Source of the DNA: Gammaproteobacteria bacterium
Lineage (GTDB): Bacteria; Pseudomonadota; Gammaproteobacteria; SURF-13
DNA: 64,000 bases
Direction: 5' to 3'
Assembly: GCA_030680605.1 (NCBI GenBank)
Contig: JAUXUQ010000001.1
Location: 1-64,000, forward strand
The notes under the pieces are model-generated. The model was not told the origin of the DNA, did no database searches, and was given only the letters and a program-made list of their open reading frames with translations. The translations under genes were made by a program, and so were the position numbers. This document shows positions 39,263 to 41,001 of this stretch, one piece after another (position 1 is the stretch's first letter; every line of letters begins with the position of its first letter).

Positions 39263-39667
39263 CTATATCATCAGTAACGCTGCGGCGATATTGCGGCCAT
39301 CGCTGGCCAGGATATTGTAGGTGCGGCAGGCGGCGCCGGTATTCATCAGTTCGACAGGGATACCGCGCTGTGCCAGGTGCGCCTGTAATCCAGGCGGCAG
39401 AAAGCGCTGGTGGGGGCCGCACCCCAGCAACAGTACCTCGGGTTGAAGTTCATCGAGGATGGCGAAATGCGCGGTGGCCAGGGCATCGAACTGCTGGGGT
39501 GGCCAGTTACGGATCAGGCGGCTGGGGGTGAGCACCAGGCTTTGGTGCAGCGTTTCGGGCAGGGGGCTCACGCCCGTGCTGGTGGAGTGCAGTATGCATA
39601 TTCCACCATCACTGTAAGAGTGTATGGTGTAACGATCGGTGCCTGTTGCCTGACTGAGTTGCATCAT
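39263..39667 (-). CDS. Mth938-like domain protein (PF04430/DUF498 family)
   Basis: About 134 residues from the ATG at 39667 (MMQLSQATGTDRYTIHSY); the neighbouring ATG at 39664 is equally possible, and an open frame extends to 39709 into a palindrome, which I consider non-coding. The fold is recognised by SLVLTPSRLIRNWPPQQF, EVLLLGCGPHQRFLPPGL, and GIPVELMNTGAACRTYNIL. Related proteins include NDUFAF3, a complex I assembly factor in mitochondria, but the bacterial function is unknown. It converges on nlpD with 13 bases between and diverges from alaC. Confidence 0.88.
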   Translation of the reverse strand: MMQLSQATGTDRYTIHSYSDGGICILHSTSTGVSPLPETLHQSLVLTPSRLIRNWPPQQFDALATAHFAILDELQPEVLLLGCGPHQRFLPPGLQAHLAQRGIPVELMNTGAACRTYNILASDGRNIAAALLMI

Positions 39668-39688: not shown

Positions 39689-39734
39689 GGCGACGCCGCA
39701 GCCTGTCAAGCAATTGACAGGCTGCGGCGTCGCC
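39689..39734. repeat. Perfect 21-bp palindrome with GCAA loop between divergent genes
   Basis: The left arm (39689-39709) begins GGCGACGCCGCAG and ends CTGTCAA; the right arm (39714-39734) begins TTGACAGG and ends GCGTCGCC. The arms are exact reverse complements over 21 bp, with a 4-base GCAA loop (39710-39713). The right arm starts with a consensus -35 box, TTGACA, which is followed after 17 bases by TATCGT (39737-39742), a possible alaC promoter. The mirror copy places TTGACA on the other strand, but no good -10 follows there. No T-run, so it is not a classical terminator. Confidence 0.9.
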
Positions 39735-39777
39735 AGTATCGTTGCAAGTTTATGATAATACTTATGGGTCTTCCAGC

Positions 39778-41001
39778 GTGATTACCGATTTTCAGCGAAT
39801 CAAGCGTCTGCCGCCCTATGTCTTCAATATCGTAACCGAATTGAAGGCCAAGGCGCGCACGCGCGGCGAGGACATCATTGATTTTGGCATGGGCAATCCG
39901 GATCAGCCTACACCACCCCACATCGTGGACAAGCTGATTGAATCCGTACAGCGTGGCGATACCCATCGCTATTCACTCTCGCGCGGCATCCCCCGGCTAC
40001 GCAAGGCGATCTGTAACTGGTACCAGCGGCGCTTTAACGTCGAACTGGACCATGCCAAGGAGGCCATCGTCACGATAGGCTCGAAAGAAGGGCTGGCCCA
40101 TCTCGCACTCGCCACCATGGGGCCTGGCGATGTCGTGCTGGTGCCGAACCCATCGTATCCGATACACCCGTATGGGTTTGTGATTGCGGGTGCGGACATA
40201 CGGCATGTGCCGCTGGTGGCGGGCGTAGACTTTTTTGCCGAGCTGGAAAAGGCCATCAAGGGCTCGTGGCCCAAACCCAAGATGCTGGTGCTGAATTTTC
40301 CGGGTAATCCGACCACGCAGTGTGTCGAGCTGGATTTTTTTGAGAAGGTGATTGCTATCGCCCGCGAGCACGAAATCTGGGTGGTGCACGATCTGGCCTA
40401 TGCGGATATCGCCTTTGATGGCTATGTTGCGCCATCCATCCTGCAAGTGCCGGGGGCCAAGGAGGTGGCGGTGGAGTTCTTTACCCTGTCCAAGAGCTAC
40501 AACATGCCTGGCTGGCGGGTAGGCTTCATGTGTGGTAACCACCATCTTGTCGAGGCGCTCGCGCGCATGAAATCCTATCTCGATTACGGGATGTTTACGC
40601 CGATCCAGGTCGCGGCCATCACGGCACTGGACGGCCCCCAGGAGTGCGTGCACGAAATTTCCGAGATGTACCGTCAGCGCCGCGACGTATTATGTGAAGG
40701 GCTTAATGCGCTGGGTTGGGCAGTCGAAAAACCGCGCGCCAGCATGTTTGTATGGGCGCCGATCCCCCCCGCTTACCGCCATCTGGGCTCGCTGGAGTTT
40801 TCCAAAAAGCTGCTGGAAGAGGCCAAGGTGGCCGTGTCGCCGGGTATTGGCTTCGGTGAATACGGTGATGACCACGTGCGCTTCGGGCTGATCGAAAATG
40901 AGCACCGTACGCGCCAGGCAGTGCGTTGTATTCGTGAAATGTTCAAGAAGGACAAGGTGTATGCGGCGCACGACACATTAAAAGCGGTTGCCGGTATATG
41001 A
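39778..41001 (+). CDS. alaC: Glutamate-pyruvate (alanine) aminotransferase AlaC
   Basis: PLP-dependent aminotransferase, the chief alanine-forming enzyme of the YfdZ/AlaC group. Closely E. coli-like throughout: [60 protein letters not shown], and [18 protein letters not shown] with the PLP lysine. The start is uncertain. GTG at 39778 gives 407 residues and lies ~30 bases after the predicted promoter; a TTG at 39742 would add 12 residues. Neither has a strong ribosome site. It is followed by hom and thrC, a common trio. Confidence 0.95.

Follow-up and report, generated by a model that had tools for sequence, protein, structure and literature searches.

A perfect 21-bp palindrome over the alaC promoter of a gammaproteobacterium as a probable template-switch scar

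The palindrome at positions 39689-39734 of the window, the 64,000-nucleotide stretch of gammaproteobacterial DNA analysed here, most likely marks a recent template switch, a scar on an alaC promoter that is itself old and ordinary. Judged against related genomes, the right arm belongs to a long-standing promoter that predates the palindrome, and a recent template switch associated with a quasipalindrome probably perfected the repeat by copying that arm. A palindrome that stands out in a promoter can thus be the trace of a mutation and need not serve regulation, and a comparison with relatives, arm by arm, tells the older promoter sequence from its later copy. The locus offers a natural and well-delimited case of a candidate template switch over a bacterial promoter, and it leaves knowledge of template-switch events unchanged. 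The palindrome sits in a divergent gap, flanked on the left by a minus-strand DUF498/Mth938-like gene and on the right by plus-strand alaC, a gene pair found in many gammaproteobacterial loci. The features are:

39263..39667, minus strand: DUF498/Mth938-like gene (PF04430), its start aligned to the MTM start of the relatives, divergent from alaC
39689..39709, no strand: left arm of the palindrome, perfect complement of 39714-39734, with TTGACA on the minus strand
39710..39713, no strand: loop GCAA (TCAA in both same-genus relatives)
39714..39734, plus strand: right arm of the palindrome, made up of the -35 box and the first 15 nt of the alaC promoter spacer
39714..39742, plus strand: predicted sigma-70-type promoter TTGACA-17-TATCGT for alaC, from a promoter scan, with the same hexamers and spacing in genomes G001 and G002
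39778..41001, plus strand: alaC-like class I/II aminotransferase (PF00155), with a GTG start at 39778 that is common to the relatives

The arms, GGCGACGCCGCAGCCTGTCAA (39689-39709) and TTGACAGGCTGCGGCGTCGCC (39714-39734), pair at 21 of 21 positions around the GCAA loop, and these 46 bases are indeed the flawless 21-bp inverted repeat that the initial annotation had described. Its rarity, also claimed there, is borne out: about 1.5e-5 such repeats are expected by chance per genome, and in 448 kb of order-2 Markov sequence the arm length never rose above 12 bp. No other inverted repeat in the window combines arms of 11 or more with a loop of at most 10. A repeat survey covering 1.445 Mb of the 1.87-Mb genome (77%) found only one perfect repeat with longer arms (25 bp, with a loop of 20); the other repeats with loops below 15 had arms of 17 bp at most, and the palindrome at 39689-39734 had the longest arms among those with tight loops. 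Its plus strand folds to the full hairpin both as RNA and as DNA, the DNA fold reaching -31.5 kcal/mol (z -11.4).

TTGACA-17-TATCGT is the best promoter-like site of the DUF498-alaC gap. G001 and G002, the two genomes of the same genus, have exactly these hexamers 17 nt apart, and the site combines what is looked for in a sigma-70 promoter: the two hexamers, a spacing of 16-18 nt and a conserved orthologous position. In 25 of the 44 gammaproteobacterial orthologous gaps shorter than 400 nt, TTGACA is present without a mismatch (shuffled sequences gave a mean of 1.7 and a maximum of 7); it is the commonest hexamer of all in these gaps, and in 21 of the 44 it is followed at 17 or 18 nt by a -10-like hexamer. 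Many of the gaps run on from TTGACA as TAATGTTAGCAGCTTT. The earlier reading of TATCGT, 17 bases after TTGACA, as part of a promoter for alaC is supported by this conservation, because of which we infer that the site is an active alaC promoter.

The alaC promoter is unusually well kept across gammaproteobacterial families, as TTGACA-17/18-TAATGT, often with TAGCAGCTTT past the -10; the conserved promoter is seen at 39714-39760 and in gaps L006, L008, L015, L024, L029, L030, L038, L073 and others. Conservation past the -10 may point to more than a plain promoter, such as a signal in the initiation region or a regulator site.

The left arm presents a different picture. Outward -35 boxes on both strands had been noted, together with the proposal of a two-way promoter. 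The boxes are literally present, but they are not functionally symmetric: the scan found promoter sites on the plus strand only and no usable -10 beyond the left TTGACA, and that TTGACA is itself absent from both same-genus relatives. A two-way promoter at 39689-39734 is therefore rejected for want of a minus-strand -10. The palindrome stands between divergent gene starts and, as had been pointed out, is followed by a T-run on neither side; the scan gave no terminator, and we reject an intrinsic terminator on these grounds. A known structured RNA is likewise rejected, since nothing in Rfam matched above its gathering score, the only hits being microRNA hairpin models far below theirs.

The perfect palindrome is found in the window genome only. 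A check of whether relatives share it had been proposed; at this site G001 and G002 hold an imperfect repeat, with arms that are 13/21 self-complementary as against 21/21 in the window. The pairs next to the loop account for much of this, with eight of the inner nine formed in G002 and seven in G001. Outside these nine the complementarity is 5-6/12, near chance, since at least 5/12 is reached by about 19% of random places, a figure that masked N stretches have probably raised slightly. The two arms also differ in how far they match the relatives. The right arm of the window is identical to both at 17 of 21 positions, the -35 being unchanged and the four differences lying together in the promoter spacer, whereas the left arm matches them at only 13-14 of 21. 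Between the DUF498 start and TTGACA there are 46 nt in the window, compared with 59 and 51 nt in the relatives; there has been no net insertion, and sequence was therefore replaced rather than added. At fourfold sites of alaC the window and its relatives are 49% identical, so that a neutral arm would have drifted. That the arms nonetheless hold no mismatch means that the repeat was made, or made perfect again, recently, unless selection has held it.

These observations fit a template switch of the kind described for quasipalindromes. The ancestral state would have been an old sigma-70-type alaC promoter beside a short imperfect repeat of the form GCCTGGCAA-TCAA-TTGACAGGC, which is still present in a relative. 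During replication the nascent strand would fold at this repeat, copy the -35 and spacer segment backwards into the upstream flank, displacing the sequence there, and then go back to its own template, the match growing from about nine imperfect to 21 perfect pairs. The imperfect repeat stands at the same place in the relatives, and its inner pairs (8/9 and 7/9) supply the priming structure that a template switch needs. The right arm, with its higher match to the relatives and its promoter kept, would be the source, and the left arm the derived inverted copy. The promoter hexamers were retained in the course of this, and alaC is presumably still driven from them; the transcript is predicted to start near 39749, and the hairpin would lie outside its leader of about 30 nt. 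As for the left arm, it and its outward TTGACA would then be a by-product.

Precedents for such an event are known. Template switching is established in E. coli as a process by which quasipalindromes become more nearly or fully perfect (PMC7202029), and the mutations studied there under the Ripley model and with lacZ QP reporters resemble the present case in the conversion of an imperfect repeat to a perfect one within one lineage, in the short loop and in the identity of one arm with the old sequence. The present case differs from that system in being deduced from a comparison of species and in its extent, with arms that would have grown from about nine to 21 pairs and overlap a promoter. A single template-switch event can create perfect stems (PMC8794818); in those short-range switches, as proposed here, a reverse-complement copy replaces neighbouring sequence and gives a perfect stem in one step. 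Those cases concern microRNA and rRNA genes, whereas this one lies over a bacterial promoter and carries no sign of hairpin transcription.

Several points weigh against a template switch. The left-arm match of 13-14/21 is little below the 17/21 of the right arm, and the four spacer differences in the right arm imply that one or more additional changes took place, or that the history was more complex. If selection favoured a perfect hairpin in the window species, the outcome would look alike. The direction of change is also indirect, because G001 and G002 group together and no outgroup with an alignable left arm was found, the DUF498 start of G004, from the next genus, falling at the -35. The same data could thus reflect a palindrome that was already perfect in the ancestor, was preserved here through selection or recurrent correction, and decayed on the way to the relatives. 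The left-arm positions partly common to the relatives (13-14/21) and the self-complementarity that their arms still show (13/21) would fit such decay. We nevertheless think it unlikely: the outer complementarity of the relatives is at the 5-6/12 level that random places also attain, and many changes would have had to accumulate in one lineage while none of the 42 arm bases changed here, despite the 49% fourfold identity.

A recent template switch also accounts for the palindrome better than a regulatory role, which we regard as improbable. The palindrome could be an operator, or a cruciform over the -35 that responds to supercoiling and switches alaC, with the DUF498 gene perhaps switched too. 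It does overlap the conserved promoter, its strand folds strongly as DNA, and promoter regions of E. coli are enriched in inverted repeats (PMC6060812). However, it is not kept in two congeners that retain the promoter, the genome has no second operator-like copy, and the minus strand lacks a -10. For the cruciform site that the initial annotation had envisaged, then, the folding is favourable and the conservation offers no support. It is very unlikely that the palindrome, once perfected, has been taken over in this species alone as a DNA switch that senses supercoiling; if so, cruciform extrusion would sequester the alaC -35 and couple alaC transcription to DNA topology.

The suggestion that a REP-like insertion had brought the promoter with it is contradicted by the comparison, in which the promoter is the older element. 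In this account a palindromic mobile element of the REP or MITE type was inserted into the gap. The genome encodes two Y1_Tnp proteins, other, unrelated palindromes recur in it, and the orthologous gap of genus g3 holds a dispersed palindrome. The likeness to REP palindromes and REPtrons with TnpAREP (PMC8266576) extends to the intergenic position and the perfect arms. Unlike REPs, the present palindrome is single-copy, has the native promoter as one arm and adds no length to the gap, which in the relatives is at least as long. A search of the genome at up to three mismatches found no copy of the arm besides the two arms themselves, so the many copies at gene ends that would have marked a plain terminator or dispersed repeat do not exist at that threshold. 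The several copies expected of a mobile element are thus missing, and we consider its insertion here highly improbable.

The Y1_Tnp genes lie at C21:36029 and C1:250371. Dispersed palindromes are clustered in the window genome (G000) at C2:13405-13557, C2:171789-172318, C7:121992, C10:102926, C12:56873 and C21:16138; examples beginning CATTTTTCAAACAC, GAAAAGCAAAAACCACG and AGGAACCTCTGATT recur together, and perhaps form composite REP-like elements. The DUF498-alaC gap of G004 (L088 / L134) contains an unrelated palindrome whose arms measure about 23 bp (TTACTAATCAGAAACAAAGTAAG), a dispersed repeat with further copies in G004 and in G002, and a second hairpin comes after it.

An assembly or amplification artefact in the form of an inverted chimera is scarcely credible, for although the genome is in 23 contigs, conserved gene order continues on both flanks across the palindrome, a continuity that no foldback chimera would show.

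For the same pattern of one conserved arm, four further long repeats of the genome were compared with the relatives; the alignments were too poor to tell, with one locus lacking a match and one showing just a weak trace of the pattern. At C2:271912-271949 of G000, a perfect palindrome of 17 bp around a 4-base loop aligns poorly in G001 and G002, and one of its arms is possibly the older.
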